Assembly: GCA_019120575.1 (NCBI GenBank)
Contig: DWUU01000048.1
Span: forward strand, 62,001 to 126,000
Length of the DNA: 64,000 nt
Direction: 5' to 3'
Source of the DNA: Candidatus Mediterraneibacter quadrami
GTDB taxonomy: Bacteria > Bacillota > Clostridia > Lachnospirales > Lachnospiraceae
Positions 5,643 through 58,782 of the stretch are shown here, piece after piece (the first letter of the stretch is position 1; every line of letters starts with the position of its first letter). Under the pieces are notes generated by a model. The model did not search any database, was not told where the DNA came from, and was given only the letters and a program-made list of their open reading frames with translations. The position numbers and the translations under genes are program-made.

Positions 5643-6269
5643 ATGGTAAAAGCATGGGCGGCGGACGTCACTCCGCTGTATGACAGAGAATGTTATGAGC
5701 GGTATCATGCGATGGCGCCGGATTTCAGAAAGCAGAAGGCGGACAGAATCCTGCTGCCGGAAATGAAGGCGCAGAGCGTGGGCGTCTGGATCCTGTGGGA
5801 GAAGATCCGGGAGCGGTATCAGATCCCGGAAGACATGCCCCATAATTTCTCCCACTCCGGTTCACTGGTCATGTGCGCGGTCTGTGTGGATGACTGCGGC
5901 GCGCAGGTGGGCTGTGATGTGGAGAAAAAAGGCGATCTCAGACTGAAAGTGGCGCAGCGCTTTTTCTGTCGGGAGGAGTATGACACGATCATAGCAGAAG
6001 ACAAAGAGGAGGACCGGATCGAACTGTTTTACCGGTACTGGGTTCTTAAAGAGAGTTTTATGAAAGCAACGGGAAAGGGCATGGCGCTTCCGGCGGATCA
6101 GTTCTGCATTCGCCTGGGCAGTCCGCCGCTCCTGATCCGGAAGCCGGAGGAATTCGCCGGAGCCTATTATTACTGCGAGTACAGTCCCGGGGGTATGCCG
6201 TACAAAATGGCGGTCTGCAGTTCAGATAAACAGTTTGACACAGAGCTTCATATGGAGTTTACTTTATGA
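5643..6269 (+). CDS. 4'-phosphopantetheinyl transferase, Sfp type
   Basis: Moves the phosphopantetheine arm from coenzyme A to a serine of carrier proteins. The 208-residue protein shows the family motifs in order: NFSHSG (68-73), VGCDVE (89-94) with Mg-binding Asp92 and Glu94, FFCREEYD (107-114) and WVLKESFMK (133-141) with the Lys136-Glu137 pair. The length fits Sfp/Gsp enzymes rather than the short AcpS type, so carrier proteins of secondary pathways are likely substrates. It sits 3 bases after the GGDEF/EAL gene and overlaps the next by 4 bases. No carrier protein is adjacent; the only one in the window is at 56981. Confidence 0.9.
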   Translation: MVKAWAADVTPLYDRECYERYHAMAPDFRKQKADRILLPEMKAQSVGVWILWEKIRERYQIPEDMPHNFSHSGSLVMCAVCVDDCGAQVGCDVEKKGDLRLKVAQRFFCREEYDTIIAEDKEEDRIELFYRYWVLKESFMKATGKGMALPADQFCIRLGSPPLLIRKPEEFAGAYYYCEYSPGGMPYKMAVCSSDKQFDTELHMEFTL

Positions 6270-53380: not shown

Positions 53381-53992
53381 TTATGCCATCAGGAAATTCA
53401 GCGATCCGGGCGGATTGTCCGTCCCTTTCTCAAGCAGCGCGATCAGCGCGGCGATGGTATTCTCGATCTCTTCCCGGGAAGCAGGAGCGATGGTGTTGTC
53501 CATCTTTACGGACAGTACGATCAGTGCGATCTCGGCCAGCTCTTCCGGCCGGTCGAAACGGATCTCGCCCGCAGAGATTCCCTGCTTAATGATCTCGGCC
53601 AGCACCGGCTTGAATTCGCTGATGAGATGGTTCATGTATTTCTGGTGGAGCAGCGCCTTCTCCGGAGCGCCCACGCTGCTTTCCTGGCCGGATTTCATAT
53701 AGTCGGCCGAGGAATTGCGGCATGCCTGGAAGATCATGGCCATGCGGGTAAACGGCGGGATGTCCGGCTGGGAAGCCAGATTCTTGGCTGTCGTCAGCGG
53801 CTGTTCATAGTTCCGCTCGACCAGCGCTTCCAGGATGGCGTCTTTGGAAGGGAAATAATAATAGATGCTGCCCTTTGCGATCCCGGCCTCCTCAGCGATG
53901 TCGCTGACAGAGATTGTCGGAAGTCCGCGGCTTGCCAGAAGTTTCTGCAGAGAATCAAGGATCAGGTTGTATTTGTCATTCCGTTCAGCCAT
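53381..53992 (-). CDS. TetR/AcrR family repressor of the NRPS-like cluster
   Basis: A 203-residue TetR-type regulator. The helix-turn-helix is at about residues 27-50 (TISVSDIAEEAGIAKGSIYYYFPSK). The C-terminal ligand domain is family-specific; overall it looks like lipid-responsive TetR proteins, but the ligand is unknown. ATG 53992 with AAAGGTG upstream is preferred over an in-frame GTG three codons earlier. It is divergent from the SCP2 gene, and two palindromic operators lie over the intervening promoter. Confidence 0.9.
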   Translation of the reverse strand: MAERNDKYNLILDSLQKLLASRGLPTISVSDIAEEAGIAKGSIYYYFPSKDAILEALVERNYEQPLTTAKNLASQPDIPPFTRMAMIFQACRNSSADYMKSGQESSVGAPEKALLHQKYMNHLISEFKPVLAEIIKQGISAGEIRFDRPEELAEIALIVLSVKMDNTIAPASREEIENTIAALIALLEKGTDNPPGSLNFLMA

Positions 53993-54139
53993 GTCGGTCA
54001 CCTTTCTTAATAAAGAAGATTCATTCTCGATCTGATATCAATTCAGCACTCATTGTAACACATTCCACGGGAAAGAGCCAGCAAGAAAAACGCACAAAAA
54101 AGATCAGGAAAAATAGGATGTTTTTGATAAAACAGCATG

Positions 54140-54168
54140 TTGACCGACAGTCAGAAAGATGTTAATCT
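54140..54168 (+). promoter_or_regulatory. Promoter of the NRPS-like operon
   Basis: TTGACC (54140-54145), 17-base spacer, TAATCT (54163-54168). The -35 box is inside operator 1, so repressor binding should block RNA polymerase. Confidence 0.7.
54141..54153. promoter_or_regulatory. TetR operator 1
   Basis: TGACCGACAGTCA: an inverted repeat TGAC-N5-GTCA covering the -35 region. It matches operator 2 at 11 of 13 positions. Confidence 0.7.
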
Positions 54169-54183
54169 AACAGATGAAAAGGA

Positions 54184-54196
54184 TGACCGCCGGTCA
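54184..54196. promoter_or_regulatory. TetR operator 2
   Basis: TGACCGCCGGTCA: inverted repeat TGACC-N3-GGTCA, 43 bases after operator 1 (start to start, about four helical turns), downstream of the predicted transcription start and upstream of the first ribosome site. Confidence 0.7.
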
Positions 54197-54230
54197 AAAA
54201 ATGGTGAATGCGGTCGAAAAGGAGGAAATT

Positions 54231-54563
54231 ATGACCTACGCAGATATGTTTTCAAGAGTTAAAGGAATGCTGATGGATGCGGATGTGAGCGATATTCATG
54301 AACATCTGGCGTATCAGTTCAATATCACCGGAGAGGCGGAAGGAATCTTCTACGCCGAAGTGAAGGACGGAAAGCTCTCCATTGAGCCGTACGAGTATTT
54401 CGACCGGGATGCGATGTTCACCTGCAGCGCGGAGACTCTGTTCAAGATCGCGGACGGGAAGACGGATCCGATTCTGGCGGTGACGCTCGGGAAACTGAAA
54501 GTAGAAGGAAATATTGATAAAGCGCTGAAACTGAAGGACCTCATTAACAGCAGGAGAAAGTAA
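54231..54563 (+). CDS. SCP2 sterol-carrier-domain protein
   Basis: A 110-residue single-domain SCP2 protein, a fold that binds hydrophobic molecules such as fatty acids, acyl-CoA or sterols. The pattern YQFNITGEAEGIFYAEVKDGKLSIE and the end DPILAVTLGKLKVEGNIDKALKL fits. ATG 54231 has AAGGAGG upstream; an in-frame ATG at 54174 precedes operator 2 and would lie before the ribosome site. First gene of the cluster, it may present a lipid to the ligase or accept the product. That role is inference. Confidence 0.85.
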   Translation: MTYADMFSRVKGMLMDADVSDIHEHLAYQFNITGEAEGIFYAEVKDGKLSIEPYEYFDRDAMFTCSAETLFKIADGKTDPILAVTLGKLKVEGNIDKALKLKDLINSRRK

Positions 54564-54587
54564 TCACATCAGAAGGAGATGCAGGCA

Positions 54588-55532
54588 ATGAGCAGGATAC
54601 TGAAAATTGCGGCGGCTCTTCTCGGGTCGGCGGCAGCGGCGGAAGTCGCGGGAAGCGCCTACCTGTACAGAAGGACCATGATCCGCTATAACGCGAAGAC
54701 AGAACGGACGATGAAGATGTCCGGCGTGGACTGGGAGAAATATATTCCCATGATGAAGGAACGCAGGGAGTGGATGATGGAACAGCCCCACGAGGATGTG
54801 TGGATCACGTCCCACGACGGCCTGAAGCTTCACGGTACATATTTTAAAGGTGATGAGGGAAATAAAGCCGTGATCTGCTTCCACGGATATACGAGCGAAG
54901 GACTCAATGATTACGGAAGCCTTTCCAATTACTATCTGAAGCACGGGTTCCGGATGCTGCTCATCGACCTGCGGGCGCACGGAAGGAGCGAGGGCGAGCA
55001 TATCGGATTCGGAAATATGGACCGGCTGGACGGGAAGCGCTGGGTCGAGTGGATGATCGAAAAGATCGGCGACGACGCACAGATCATCCTTCACGGCAAT
55101 TCCATGGGAAGCGCCACGGTCTGCATGATGAGCGGGCTGGATCTGCCGCCCCAGGTAAAAGGGATTATTTCCGACTGTGCATTTACGTCCATGAAGGATG
55201 TATTCACCCATGTGCTCCACAGCATGTACCACATTCCGGCGTTCCCCATGCTGCAGCTTGCGGACTGGGCGAATAAAAGACAGGTCGGCTACGGCCTTGA
55301 CGACTGCGATTCATCCAGGGAAGTAAGGCGCGCAAAAGTGCCGTTCCTCTTCATCCACGGGAAAGAGGATGTGTTCGTTCCCTGCTGGATGACGGAGAAG
55401 ATCTATGAGAACTGCGCGGCGCCGAAGACGAAGTTCATCGTCGAGGGCGCGGGACACGGGGAAAGCTACTACAAGGACACCGAAGGATATGAGAAAGCCA
55501 TGGATTCATTTTTAGGAGGAGTCATAAAATGA
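54588..55532 (+). CDS. Alpha/beta hydrolase, membrane-anchored
   Basis: A 314-residue serine hydrolase with an N-terminal hydrophobic helix (about 5-25). The nucleophile is Ser172 in GNSMGSAT; the acid is the Asp of HGKEDVFVP and the base the His of GAGHGESYY near the end. HGYTSEG at about 99-105 forms the oxyanion side. ATG 54588 is used because AAGGAG is directly adjacent to the ATG at 54579. In the cluster it could act as a thioesterase releasing product from the carrier, or hydrolyse an amide or ester. It overlaps the next gene by 4 bases. Confidence 0.85.
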   Translation: MSRILKIAAALLGSAAAAEVAGSAYLYRRTMIRYNAKTERTMKMSGVDWEKYIPMMKERREWMMEQPHEDVWITSHDGLKLHGTYFKGDEGNKAVICFHGYTSEGLNDYGSLSNYYLKHGFRMLLIDLRAHGRSEGEHIGFGNMDRLDGKRWVEWMIEKIGDDAQIILHGNSMGSATVCMMSGLDLPPQVKGIISDCAFTSMKDVFTHVLHSMYHIPAFPMLQLADWANKRQVGYGLDDCDSSREVRRAKVPFLFIHGKEDVFVPCWMTEKIYENCAAPKTKFIVEGAGHGESYYKDTEGYEKAMDSFLGGVIK

Positions 55533-56935
55533 TGAGGACAAGAAAGGGATACAAAGTATACCCGCTGACTGTAGCACAGAGATTTCATCTTTTCTATCTG
55601 CCGTACAGCCCGACCGCGGCCGTGCTGAACATCGGTACCAGCCTGACCATCGAGGTCGAGATCGACTGGGACGTACTGAAACAGTCCATCAACAAAGCCT
55701 ATGAGCGGAGTGAAGGGATGCGGATCCGTTTCGCGAAAGATAAAGAAGGCAACTATTATCAGTACATCGTGGATCATGAGGATCAGGACATCGAATTCGT
55801 GGACTTCACCGGAAAGACCATGGAGGAAGCTGAGGAGATCATGAAGGAGTGGACGAGAGTTCCCTTCAAGATGACGGATACCCAGCTTACGAGAGTTGTC
55901 ATGATCAAGACGCCGGACGGTTTCAGCGGCGTCTATTTCCTGGGACATCATATGATCGTGGACGCCCAGTCCCTGATCGCATTCCTCAAGGACATCATTG
56001 AGATCTACTGTAATGCGAAATACGAAGGCGTTCCCTATCCGAAGGAGATGACCTCCTATATCGAACAGCTCCAGAAAGATCTGGCGTACGAGGCCGGCAG
56101 CAGGGCGCAGGCAAGAGACGCCGAGTACTTTGAGAAGGAGATCGAGAAAGGCGAGCCGATCTTCAGCGGCATCAACGGCCGGGACAAGCTGGAGGCGGCA
56201 AGGGAGATGTTTAAGAATCCGGAGCTGCGTTCCGCGTTCAGCGCAAGCGACGACACGAAATCAGCCCTGGATATCTTCCACCTGGAAGAGGAGCCGACAC
56301 AGCGCCTGATGGATTTCTGTGAGAAATATCATGTATCGCTGGCATGTCTGCTGCTGATGGGCCTGAGGACCTACCTGCAGAAAATGAACGGATTCGAGGA
56401 CGTGTCCATCAACAACGCCATCGCAAGACGCGCTACACTGAAGGAGAAGAAATGCGGCGGTACAAGGATCCACTCCTTCCCGCTGCGGACCATTTTCCCG
56501 GAGGATATGAAGTTCATCGACGGCGTGTTCGCGATCCGCGACAAGCAGAATGAGATCTTCCGTCATGCAAACTATGACCCGACTGCGTATTTTGCGCACC
56601 GTCATAAAGTATACCCGCAGCCCCATGCAGGACTGACCTACGAGCAGATCTCCCTGACGTATCAGCCGCTTACACTGAAAGAGAAGGGACTCAACGATCT
56701 GGGCGACATCCGGTACAAGACGAAATGGTATCCTAACGGATCCTGCCCGCAGGCAATGTACCTGACCGTAATGCACCGGCCGGAGGATAACGGACTGGAC
56801 TTCAACTTCGAGCATCAGATCAAGGCGGTGTCGAGAGAAGAACTGGAATACCTGTACTACTATCTGTGCAAGATCATGTTCAAGGGTGCGGAGAATCCGG
56901 ACCTGACCATCGGAGAGATCATTAAGTTAGTATAG
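55529..56935 (+). CDS. Free-standing condensation domain (NRPS C-domain/acyltransferase superfamily)
   Basis: A 468-residue stand-alone condensation enzyme. The active-site motif is HHMIVDA (140-146): His140, the catalytic His141 and Asp145 are kept, while the usual final Gly is Ala. The N-terminal YPLTVAQRFHLFY resembles the C1 motif and ISLTYQPL lies near the C-terminal latch. Such proteins join an acyl-thioester on a carrier protein to an amine or alcohol. No adenylation or carrier domain is fused; both are supplied by the next two genes. The nucleophile substrate is unknown. Confidence 0.85.
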   Translation: MMRTRKGYKVYPLTVAQRFHLFYLPYSPTAAVLNIGTSLTIEVEIDWDVLKQSINKAYERSEGMRIRFAKDKEGNYYQYIVDHEDQDIEFVDFTGKTMEEAEEIMKEWTRVPFKMTDTQLTRVVMIKTPDGFSGVYFLGHHMIVDAQSLIAFLKDIIEIYCNAKYEGVPYPKEMTSYIEQLQKDLAYEAGSRAQARDAEYFEKEIEKGEPIFSGINGRDKLEAAREMFKNPELRSAFSASDDTKSALDIFHLEEEPTQRLMDFCEKYHVSLACLLLMGLRTYLQKMNGFEDVSINNAIARRATLKEKKCGGTRIHSFPLRTIFPEDMKFIDGVFAIRDKQNEIFRHANYDPTAYFAHRHKVYPQPHAGLTYEQISLTYQPLTLKEKGLNDLGDIRYKTKWYPNGSCPQAMYLTVMHRPEDNGLDFNFEHQIKAVSREELEYLYYYLCKIMFKGAENPDLTIGEIIKLV

Positions 56936-56980
56936 GGCCGGACGCAGAAAATAAATTTTACAGAGAAAAGGAGAAAGATC

Positions 56981-57214
56981 ATGTTTGAGAAATTAGTAGA
57001 TATCATCTGCAACTATGTTGAAGTAGAGCCGGAGAACATCCATCCGGAGTCTCGTTTCATGGAAGACCTGGGCTTCACATCATTTGACTTTATGAGCATG
57101 CTCGGCGAGATCGAGGACGAATTCGATGTGGAAGTAGAGCAGGCAGAAGCTGCAAACATCCGTACAGTGGGAGAAGCGGCGGCATATCTTGAGAAACTGT
57201 CATCCGAGTCATAA
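56981..57214 (+). CDS. Free-standing acyl/peptidyl carrier protein
   Basis: A 77-residue acidic four-helix carrier protein. The attachment site is GFTSFDFM with Ser34; the usual Asp-Ser-Leu is Thr-Ser-Phe here. Helix 2 continues MLGEIEDEFDVEVEQ, typical of carriers. It needs 4'-phosphopantetheine on Ser34, which the Sfp-type enzyme at 5643 could supply. It lies 45 bases after the condensation gene and 25 before the ligase start. The altered motif and context argue it is not the fatty-acid-synthesis ACP. Confidence 0.92.
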   Translation: MFEKLVDIICNYVEVEPENIHPESRFMEDLGFTSFDFMSMLGEIEDEFDVEVEQAEAANIRTVGEAAAYLEKLSSES

Positions 57215-57239
57215 GCTGGGGAAAGGGAAGGGAAGATCT

Positions 57240-58748
57240 ATGCTTTGTACGACAGTCCGCCAGATCCTGGCCAACACAGAGAAAAAATACGGTCCGGAAG
57301 ACGCGGTCCGCTATAAGATCAGTAAAAATGAGATCGAGGCAAAAACATATACACAGTTAAAAGAGGACAGCGAAAGCTTTTCCAATGTCCTGAAAAACCT
57401 GGGCGAGCAGGGGAGTCACATTTCCGTGATCGGCGCCACATCTTATCCGTGGCTTGTGACCTACTTCGGAACGGTCAACAGCGGCAGCGTGATCGTGCCG
57501 CTGGACGTGAATCTTCCGGCGGAGGATGTATGTGATCTGATCGACCGGTCTGATTCAACCATCCTGGTGTATGATGAAGTGAGAAAAGACGTGGCGGCGA
57601 TCGCAAAAGAACGCTGCCCGAAACTGAAAACCCTGATCTCCATGCAGCAGGCGGAGCATGACGACCATGCGTCTTCCTGGCGGAAGCTGCTGGAGGAGAA
57701 CCGGGGCGGCTTCGAGTATGAGCCGGAACCGGACCAGCTGTGTACGATCATGTTTACATCCGGGACAACGGGGAAGAGCAAGGGTGTTATGCTCACTCAC
57801 AGAAATGTGGCGGAGAATGCGACCTGCCTGGATATGAAGATCCCGGAGCGGACGGTGATCCTGTCCGTGCTGCCGATCCATCACGCATACTGCCTGAGCA
57901 TGGATGTCCTGAAAGGCATTTCCCTCGGGTCCGTGATCTGCATCAATGATTCTCTGATGCGTGTGGCGAAGAATATCAAACTCTTCAAGCCGGAAATGAT
58001 CCTGATGGTGCCTCTGATGATCGAGACCATGGCGAAGAAGCTGGAGGAGGCCTCCCTTCTGCCGGCGAAGATCGTCAAGAGCCAGGTGTTCGGGAAGCAG
58101 CTGCACACCATCTGCAGCGGCGGGGCATATCTGGATCCGGCATACATCGACCTGTTTAATAAATACGACATCACCATCCTGCAGGGTTACGGCATGACCG
58201 AATGCGCGCCGGTCATCAGCACGACGGTCAGCTGGAACATCCGCAAGGATTCCGTGGGTCAGCTCATCCCGAACTGCGAGGCAAAGACCGTGGACGGCGA
58301 GCTCTGGGTGCGGGGAAGCAGTGTGATGCAGGGATACTATAAGATGCCGGAGGAGACCGCCGAGACACTGGAAGACGGCTGGCTCAAGACCGGGGATCTG
58401 GGCTATGCGGACGAGGACGGATTCGTCTATCTGACCGGCCGCAAGAAGAACCTGATCATCACTAAGAACGGTGAAAACGTTTCTCCGGAGGAACTGGAGA
58501 ATGCGCTCAGTACGAACCGCCTGGTGGGCGAGGTGCTGGTGCGCGAGAAGAACGGCGTCATCGAGGCCGAGATCTATCCGGATCAGGACTATGTAAAGAA
58601 GAAACGGATCAAAGACGTGCGGGCAAAACTGCAGGAGGTTATCGATGAGTATAACCTGAAGGCGGCGCCGCAGAAAAAGATCTACAGCCTGATCGTAAGG
58701 GATACGGAGTTCGAGAAGACAACAACAAGAAAGATCAAGAGATTTTAA
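57240..58748 (+). CDS. AMP-dependent ligase / adenylation enzyme (acyl-CoA synthetase superfamily)
   Basis: A 502-residue adenylate-forming enzyme that should activate a carboxylic acid with ATP and load it on the carrier protein. The core motifs are FTSGTTGKSKG (172-182), GYGMTECAP (316-324), TGDLGY (384-389) and GRKKNLI (400-406), and the last residues TTTRKIKRF supply the catalytic Lys498. ATG 57240 follows GGGAAGGGAAG. The lack of a clear amino-acid pocket signature and the neighbouring SCP2 gene favour a fatty or aryl acid; this is inference. Confidence 0.92.
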   Translation: MLCTTVRQILANTEKKYGPEDAVRYKISKNEIEAKTYTQLKEDSESFSNVLKNLGEQGSHISVIGATSYPWLVTYFGTVNSGSVIVPLDVNLPAEDVCDLIDRSDSTILVYDEVRKDVAAIAKERCPKLKTLISMQQAEHDDHASSWRKLLEENRGGFEYEPEPDQLCTIMFTSGTTGKSKGVMLTHRNVAENATCLDMKIPERTVILSVLPIHHAYCLSMDVLKGISLGSVICINDSLMRVAKNIKLFKPEMILMVPLMIETMAKKLEEASLLPAKIVKSQVFGKQLHTICSGGAYLDPAYIDLFNKYDITILQGYGMTECAPVISTTVSWNIRKDSVGQLIPNCEAKTVDGELWVRGSSVMQGYYKMPEETAETLEDGWLKTGDLGYADEDGFVYLTGRKKNLIITKNGENVSPEELENALSTNRLVGEVLVREKNGVIEAEIYPDQDYVKKKRIKDVRAKLQEVIDEYNLKAAPQKKIYSLIVRDTEFEKTTTRKIKRF

Positions 58749-58782
58749 AAAACTGAGCGGTTTTTGAGCCGCTCAGTTTTTT
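58746..58782 (+). terminator. Bidirectional terminator after the ligase gene
   Basis: CTGAGCGG (58753-58760) pairs with CCGCTCAG (58769-58776), flanked by AAAAAA and TTTTTT. It serves the plus-strand cluster and the convergent lacI-type gene. Confidence 0.9.

Follow-up and report, generated by a model that had tools for sequence, protein, structure and literature searches.

We analysed a 64,000-nucleotide stretch of DNA from Candidatus Mediterraneibacter quadrami (contig DWUU01000048.1, positions 62,001 to 126,000; called the window here, with its first letter as position 1) and found a five-gene operon with a divergent TetR gene. We consider it very likely, with a probability of about 0.85, that this operon is an amide-making cassette (for fatty-acid amides, FAA, or N-acyl amides) with its own repressor. 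By homology, the locus belongs to the FAA ("CTA") cassettes of gut Lachnospiraceae, of which the FAA core is known. We base this assignment on the full-length homology of its condensation protein to OaaC, the gene order condensation protein, acyl carrier protein (ACP) and ligase, and the FAA active-site pattern, and it bears out a tie to gut clostridial fatty-acid amide clusters that a reading of the DNA alone (the sequence-only reading) had put forward. The conserved five-gene, two-operator unit and the probable identity of its SCP2 protein with a cholesterol-responsive Blautia protein were not found stated in the literature (Chang et al. 2021 was outside our coverage).

A conserved gene unit related to the oaa cluster

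The plus strand encodes an SCP2 domain protein of 110 amino acids (54231..54563; PF02036), an alpha/beta hydrolase (54588..55532; PF12146/PF00561), a free-standing condensation (C) protein of 468 amino acids (55529..56935; PF00668), whose start overlaps the hydrolase stop, an ACP of 77 amino acids (56981..57214; PF00550), and an AMP-forming acyl ligase of 502 amino acids (57240..58748; PF00501). The TetR-family repressor gene lies on the minus strand (53381..54001; PF00440, PF21303). Five separate genes with a TetR gene were what the sequence-only reading had described here, and all six were found, each with a Pfam match above the curated cut-off (TetR_N, SCP2, Hydrolase_4/Abhydrolase_1, Condensation, PP-binding, AMP-binding). 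Start codons matching ribosome sites were identified at 54231 (SCP2), 54588 (hydrolase), and 57240 (ligase), and are better than those of the longest frames.

The catalytic residues named in the sequence-only reading proved correct when counted from ATG 57240 for the ligase and ATG 54588 for the hydrolase. Ser34 of the carrier and His141 and Asp145 of the C protein (H140-H141-M-I-V-D145-A) are intact, Lys498 of the ligase corresponds to Lys515 in the 519-amino-acid frame, and Ser172 of the hydrolase corresponds to Ser175 of its long frame, in whose numbering the triad partners are Asp264 and His293. The motif His and Asp are conserved in all 115 aligned C proteins. Among sequences passing E-value and length filters, the hydrolase triad is present in 97 of 97, and carrier Ser34 and ligase Lys515 are kept in at least 97% (124 carrier and 88 ligase sequences). 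The genome (2.19 Mb in 61 contigs, 94% complete) yielded one condensation protein (PF00668), one SCP2 domain, and one phosphopantetheinyl transferase (PF01648). The latter is of Sfp size, lies ~48 kb from the cassette (5643..6269, plus strand), and is a candidate activator of the carrier, so that by gene content both the carrier serine and a transferase gene are present. We found no separate AcpS gene, with the genome at 94% completeness. In another locus, a frame resembling an Sfp-type transferase by eye (L149:11073-11714) lies directly 3' of a divergent C-ligase-carrier set.

The C protein matches OaaC (PDB 12KH) over residues 9-467 of 468 (E 5.6e-112, 40% identity). According to the accessible part of PMC13142362, OaaC belongs with OaaA and OaaACP to the oaa cluster of Coprococcus eutactus for oleoyl aminovaleric acid; together with its ligase and ACP it forms amides in vitro from acyl-ACP and a free amine, gives no product with oleoyl-CoA, and its dimer opens upon holo or acyl ACP. 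The same source gives the FAA condensation motif as (D/H)HxxxDS, the residue after Asp being Ser in 42% and Ala in 36%. The window motif HHMIVDA is within the reported (D/H)HxxxD(S/A) range and differs from DHRLMDS of OaaC, with which it shares the second His and the Asp; the first position varies among the 115 C proteins (D, H, N, Q, S). As in the oaa cluster, C, carrier, and fatty-acid ligase are free-standing products of separate genes in one unit, here in C-T-A order. A canonical multidomain nonribosomal peptide synthetase has C, adenylation (A), and peptidyl carrier protein (PCP) domains in one chain and an acceptor PCP; here we found separate proteins of 468, 77, and 502 amino acids and a single carrier gene, and the absence of an acceptor carrier protein is expected if the acceptor is a free amine. 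CTA operons in Blautia and further Lachnospiraceae share the C-T-A order and family with the window, and an acyl-amine output would be expected by this likeness. In the accessible part of PMC13060934, the CTA operon is presented as three genes, in contrast to five plus TetR in the window, and the search rule asked for 70% identity or more of both C and ligase to a catalogue protein of Chang et al. Its main text contains none of the words SCP2, hydrolase, TetR, repressor, and sterol.

We compared the locus with 80 loci of close relatives that encode a related C protein, keeping the best 80 out of 160. In this set the closest match to the C protein came from Candidatus Mediterraneibacter guildfordensis (100% in the best segment), and the nearest named relatives were Mediterraneibacter species. 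The order TetR (divergent), SCP2, hydrolase, C, ACP, and ligase is present in 72 of the 80 loci. Five of the others end at contig ends (L037, L042, L083, L090, L097) and three lack a recognised TetR gene (L026, L062, L074), L026 having a TetR remnant with a 36-residue match. The sequence-only reading would have been in doubt had homologues been scattered, and they were not: of 58 genomes of the genus, C was present in 41, SCP2 in 43, and the hydrolase in 42 (counted at E up to 1e-60), with all three in 41 genomes and none in 15. The two partial cases are G039, with SCP2 and neither C nor hydrolase, and G044, where a fragment of the hydrolase at a contig end accompanies SCP2. This synteny and co-occurrence argue that the gene set is not due to chance. 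Beyond the six genes, no further family occurred in more than 19 of 73 flanks; the flanking genes vary, and we therefore regard the unit as a discrete cassette that occupies different places. In 15-19 of the 73 loci (L030, L034, and others) the cassette lies 5' of genes that resemble dus, greA, lysS, or coaX by eye, and other loci differ. Plasmid carriage was considered and rejected, the single match (22.9%) being in Bacillus.

An even draw of 397 genomes of the family was searched with OaaC, resulting in 73 genomes with any match and 56 places at E <1e-40, the window among them; the other 55 were examined with their flanks. Window-type loci made up 38 of the 55, and 17 were Oaa-type or divergent. 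All five structural genes are present in 35 of the 38 window-type loci, and all six in order in 30 (30 of 55 overall). Within the 17 Oaa-type or divergent loci, of which three (L138, L140, L144) have less than 1.8 kb on one side of C and among which the C. eutactus locus was not sampled, none had an SCP2 gene detectable with the window-clade profile at E 1e-3, a homologous hydrolase lay nearby in five, and three had a C gene without partners. TetR genes near some of these loci match the window TetR weakly (E 3e-6 to 1.5e-4). Hence, the sequence-only view of the SCP2 and hydrolase partners as unusual holds relative to the Oaa type and fails within the window clade, where both are the rule. As side observations, we noted three solitary Oaa-like C genes (L145, L146, L147, in three genomes of 5.7-6.9 Mb), for which neither a carrier nor a ligase gene was found within ~7 kb, and, in a genome of the same genus, an SCP2 homologue (L203:6520-6960) that stands without the rest of the cassette in 14 kb.

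A tree of C proteins separated the window clade from the Oaa clade with support of 98/95. It took 75 of the 115 alignment rows, and its group labels denote the C clade and not verified gene content: L083, L090, and L097 are truncated at contig ends, SCP2 and TetR are both missing from L124 and TetR from L128, and L145-L149 are labelled Oaa-type, yet L145-L147 are the lone C genes and L148 and L149 sit on long branches. Locus L150 (5972-9426) has a window-type cassette with fragmentary C and TetR genes and no carrier, from decay or an assembly error, and was excluded from the C alignment and tree because its C is fragmentary. The SCP2 alignment took 23 of the 35 rows first listed.

Promoter, operators and repressor

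The gap between the TetR and SCP2 genes contains a promoter, TTGACC-17 bp-TAATCT (54140..54168, plus strand), and two palindromes with a GACC-N3-GGTC core. Operator O1 (54140..54155) overlaps the -35 box with one core mismatch, and O2 (54183..54198), with a perfect core, follows 43 bp on, immediately 3' of the inferred transcription start. This start is placed near 54175 by the -10 box at 54163-54168. The longest SCP2 frame would begin at 54174, and we rejected this codon in favour of 54231 because its 19-codon leader lies 5' of the inferred transcription start and is interrupted by a stop codon in 41 of 77 close loci, and because all 77 have a start codon at the position equivalent to 54231. 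A third half-site, GGTCGAAAAGGAGG (54210-54225), reaches into the SCP2 ribosome site, and by eye many close relatives have it. A terminator-like hairpin with a T-run follows the ligase gene (58752..58782, plus strand; our reading of the sequence).

Close promoter regions comprised the window and 77 loci (L037 was omitted as short, and L090 and L097 lack SCP2 and hence the region). At least two operator cores, with one mismatch allowed, occur in 76 of these 78 regions compared with 9 of 7800 base-shuffled regions, the spacing from the first operator is 43-45 in 74, and the promoter (TTGACC-N16-18-TAnnnT) is present in 77. The two regions without the operator pair are L062 and L074, which lack a recognised TetR. 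We also took in 39 regions from a broader range (35 from family loci, four from a Blautia genus), of which 31 had at least two sites and 33 the promoter. Four family loci with SCP2 and no TetR match (L207, L213, L223, L232) have no operator pair; L238 keeps the sites and shares a contig with L026, which has the TetR remnant. Because TetR and the operator pair are lost together, these comparisons support the prediction that the cassette TetR reads O1/O2-type sites. Four loci with a TetR gene and fewer than two sites at this stringency (L209, L219, L220, L201) count against a simple rule of TetR and site, as L230, L199, and L200 keep the pair with an equally diverged TetR.

Within the window's own genome, a 16-base operator consensus found O2 alone at one mismatch, and O1 with 32 others at two mismatches. 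As O1 is itself a two-mismatch site and the genome count lies below the control, we base the operator claim on conservation across genomes. A pattern derived from the window gave three matches (O1, O2, and C6:32243, the last inside a coding frame) against one in the control. No further target was supported in a search of this genome for a wider TetR regulon. Many TetR proteins of solved structure match the repressor, the best being 3b81 (AcrR family, E 8.5e-13), followed by EthR, the fatty-acid regulator 3whb (E 1.6e-8), and others.

Possible roles of the hydrolase and the SCP2 protein

From these features we infer how the cassette would operate in this species. TetR on O1 and O2 would block the promoter until an incoming lipid binds TetR and causes its release. 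The ligase would activate free fatty acid as acyl-AMP and load the phosphopantetheinylated carrier, and the C protein would transfer the acyl group to a small amine that diffuses freely, releasing the amide; we propose no preferred amine. SCP2 may serve as a soluble lipid-binding carrier that delivers the fatty acid or accepts the amide, and the hydrolase, probably a membrane-anchored esterase or lipase, may supply the fatty acid or trim the product. We give about even odds to these last two roles. The cell likely benefits by trapping fatty acids from the diet or host and rendering them harmless, and the product would be a lipid that acts on the host.

The hydrolase begins with a long hydrophobic helix (residues 2-33) whose Kyte-Doolittle value, 1.58 over 19 residues, is borderline, followed by an alpha/beta hydrolase fold with the Ser/Asp/His triad; the AlphaFold2 model has a mean predicted local distance difference test (pLDDT) score of 89.3, lower over the first 50 residues. 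Esterase Pf2001 is the best fold match, with feruloyl esterases, the thioesterase DcsB (7d78), and monoglyceride lipases further down, and fold and sequence matches together are best to Pf2001, feruloyl/cinnamoyl esterases, and monoglyceride lipases. On our reading, the protein would be an esterase releasing fatty acids at the membrane. Alternatively, within the same amide core, the protein could be an amide or thioester hydrolase for proofreading or product turnover, with SCP2 merely shielding the membrane from the product. The fold match to DcsB is consistent with this, and so is the presence of a homologous hydrolase close to C in 5 of the 17 loci outside the window type, which ties the hydrolase to C more widely than SCP2. 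The best matches favour an ester, without deciding the substrate, and we consider this alternative tentative and rather unlikely.

The SCP2 model (AlphaFold2 pLDDT 91.5) has an SCP2 fold, and its fold matches include mosquito SCP2 with a bound C16 fatty acid (1pz4). According to the accessible part of PMC13029680, an SCP2-like protein of Blautia hominis HA2291, RS03310, rises with cholesterol, binds cholesterol, and has a predicted link to a condensation protein, RS03300; it was read as a sterol enzyme. We tested the 12 pocket residues named there on SCP2 proteins. Among 91 SCP2 proteins near the window, the best had 7 of 12 and the window protein 5 of 12; with random placements of the letters, 7 was reached in none of 2000 trials and at least 5 in nine. 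In the Blautia genus of G085, three large genomes have SCP2 proteins at 57-60% identity, with 9, 10, and 12 of the 12 residues when the best start codon is used. The protein with all 12 (genome G460, locus L201) has 174 amino acids and 19.7 kDa, compared with a reported tagged band of ~20.6 kDa. Its locus has the order TetR, SCP2, hydrolase, C, carrier, ligase, so only the hydrolase gene separates SCP2 from C, in keeping with the tags RS03310 and RS03300, and it keeps the promoter and O2, with O1 at more than one mismatch. The large-genome Blautia SCP2 proteins (L196, L198, L201) carry a long Lys-rich C-terminal tail, which the window SCP2 lacks.

RS03310 is therefore very probably the SCP2 protein of an FAA cassette, because the 12 residues, the size, and the neighbour all fit L201. 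Two details in the accessible text of PMC13029680 speak against this identity, namely the 795-bp PCR product in a legend, compared with ~525 bp for a gene of 174 codons, a discrepancy that vector flanks could explain, and the reported 63% identity to rabbit SCP2 1C44, compared with 28% between the window SCP2 and 1c44. RS03310 is of the same SCP2 family as the window protein, and the comparison supports orthology. Our literature search found no paper placing SCP2 in an FAA cassette (Chang et al. 2021 being beyond its reach); the terms "amide", "acyl amine", and "N-acyl" are absent from the accessible text of PMC13029680, as are "cholesterol" and "sterol" from PMC13142362 and PMC13060934.

The cholesterol response and binding of RS03310, by all signs a cassette SCP2, and its predicted link to RS03300 raise the alternative of a cassette for sterols or bile lipids, in which SCP2 brings cholesterol or a related alcohol whose hydroxyl is acylated by C, or of a sterol-modifying operon, as PMC13029680 suggests; the confinement of SCP2 to the window clade among the loci sampled would agree with this. 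We regard it as improbable, since the C protein is a homologue of OaaC, which acts on an amine, a fatty-acid-bound SCP2 is among the fold matches, and the abstract of PMC13029680 gives cholestenone and epicholestanol as products and no sterol esters. It is very improbable that the genes serve acyl-CoA or general lipid metabolism and that C is a relic: the best NCBIfam model for the ligase is a long-chain acyl-CoA ligase subfamily, although the score is below cut-off, as with the other acyl-CoA ligase models, and against a relic stand the invariant His and Asp of C and the lack of an internal stop in any of the 42 C matches of the genus.

Several observations weigh against the amide-making cassette with its own repressor. 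Given the 40% identity to OaaC and the 98/95 split between the clades, the acyl acceptor of the window clade could differ from that of OaaC; we found no biochemistry on the window clade in the literature, and the CTA+ Blautia species tested in PMC13060934 may carry either cassette type. Recognised TetR alone is missing from 5 of the 38 window-type loci (L207, L213, L223, L232, L238), SCP2 and TetR from two (L204 and L222, the latter starting near a contig end), and the carrier from one (L150, where C and TetR are broken). The operator consensus at two mismatches gave 34 sites in the own genome (some counted on both strands), not above the 125 of the control. Finally, the single published assay of a cassette SCP2, that on RS03310, reported NAD-dependent oxidation of cholesterol and not fatty acid handling (PMC13029680, accessible part).

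The cassette in gut lipid biology

N-acyl amides of gut Clostridia act on human G protein-coupled receptors, and a link has been drawn from their synthesis by Blautia to gut hormones and to the tolerance of fatty acids (PMC13142362, PMC13060934, accessible parts). In the latter source, two CTA+ Blautia species exceeded two CTA- species in oleoyl-, palmitoyl-, and linoleoyl-ethanolamine, the CTA- species making lower amounts of acyl ethanolamines via other enzymes, and growth was inhibited by fatty acids and rescued by some amines. The form with SCP2 and hydrolase is the commoner one in the even family draw, yet structure work covers the other clade. Its conserved repressor and two operators offer a handle on the timing of lipid production, and the link to the Blautia cholesterol protein joins the sterol and acyl amide literatures. 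It is possible, though we hold this only tentatively, that the unit is a host-lipid switch, in which host or diet fatty acids or cholesterol release TetR and the dedicated SCP2 passes the lipid to C or takes the product. If so, the cholesterol response and binding of the Blautia SCP2 would be one visible part of an N-acyl amide pathway, and sterol and lipid levels in the gut would be tied to the bacterial making of host receptor ligands.

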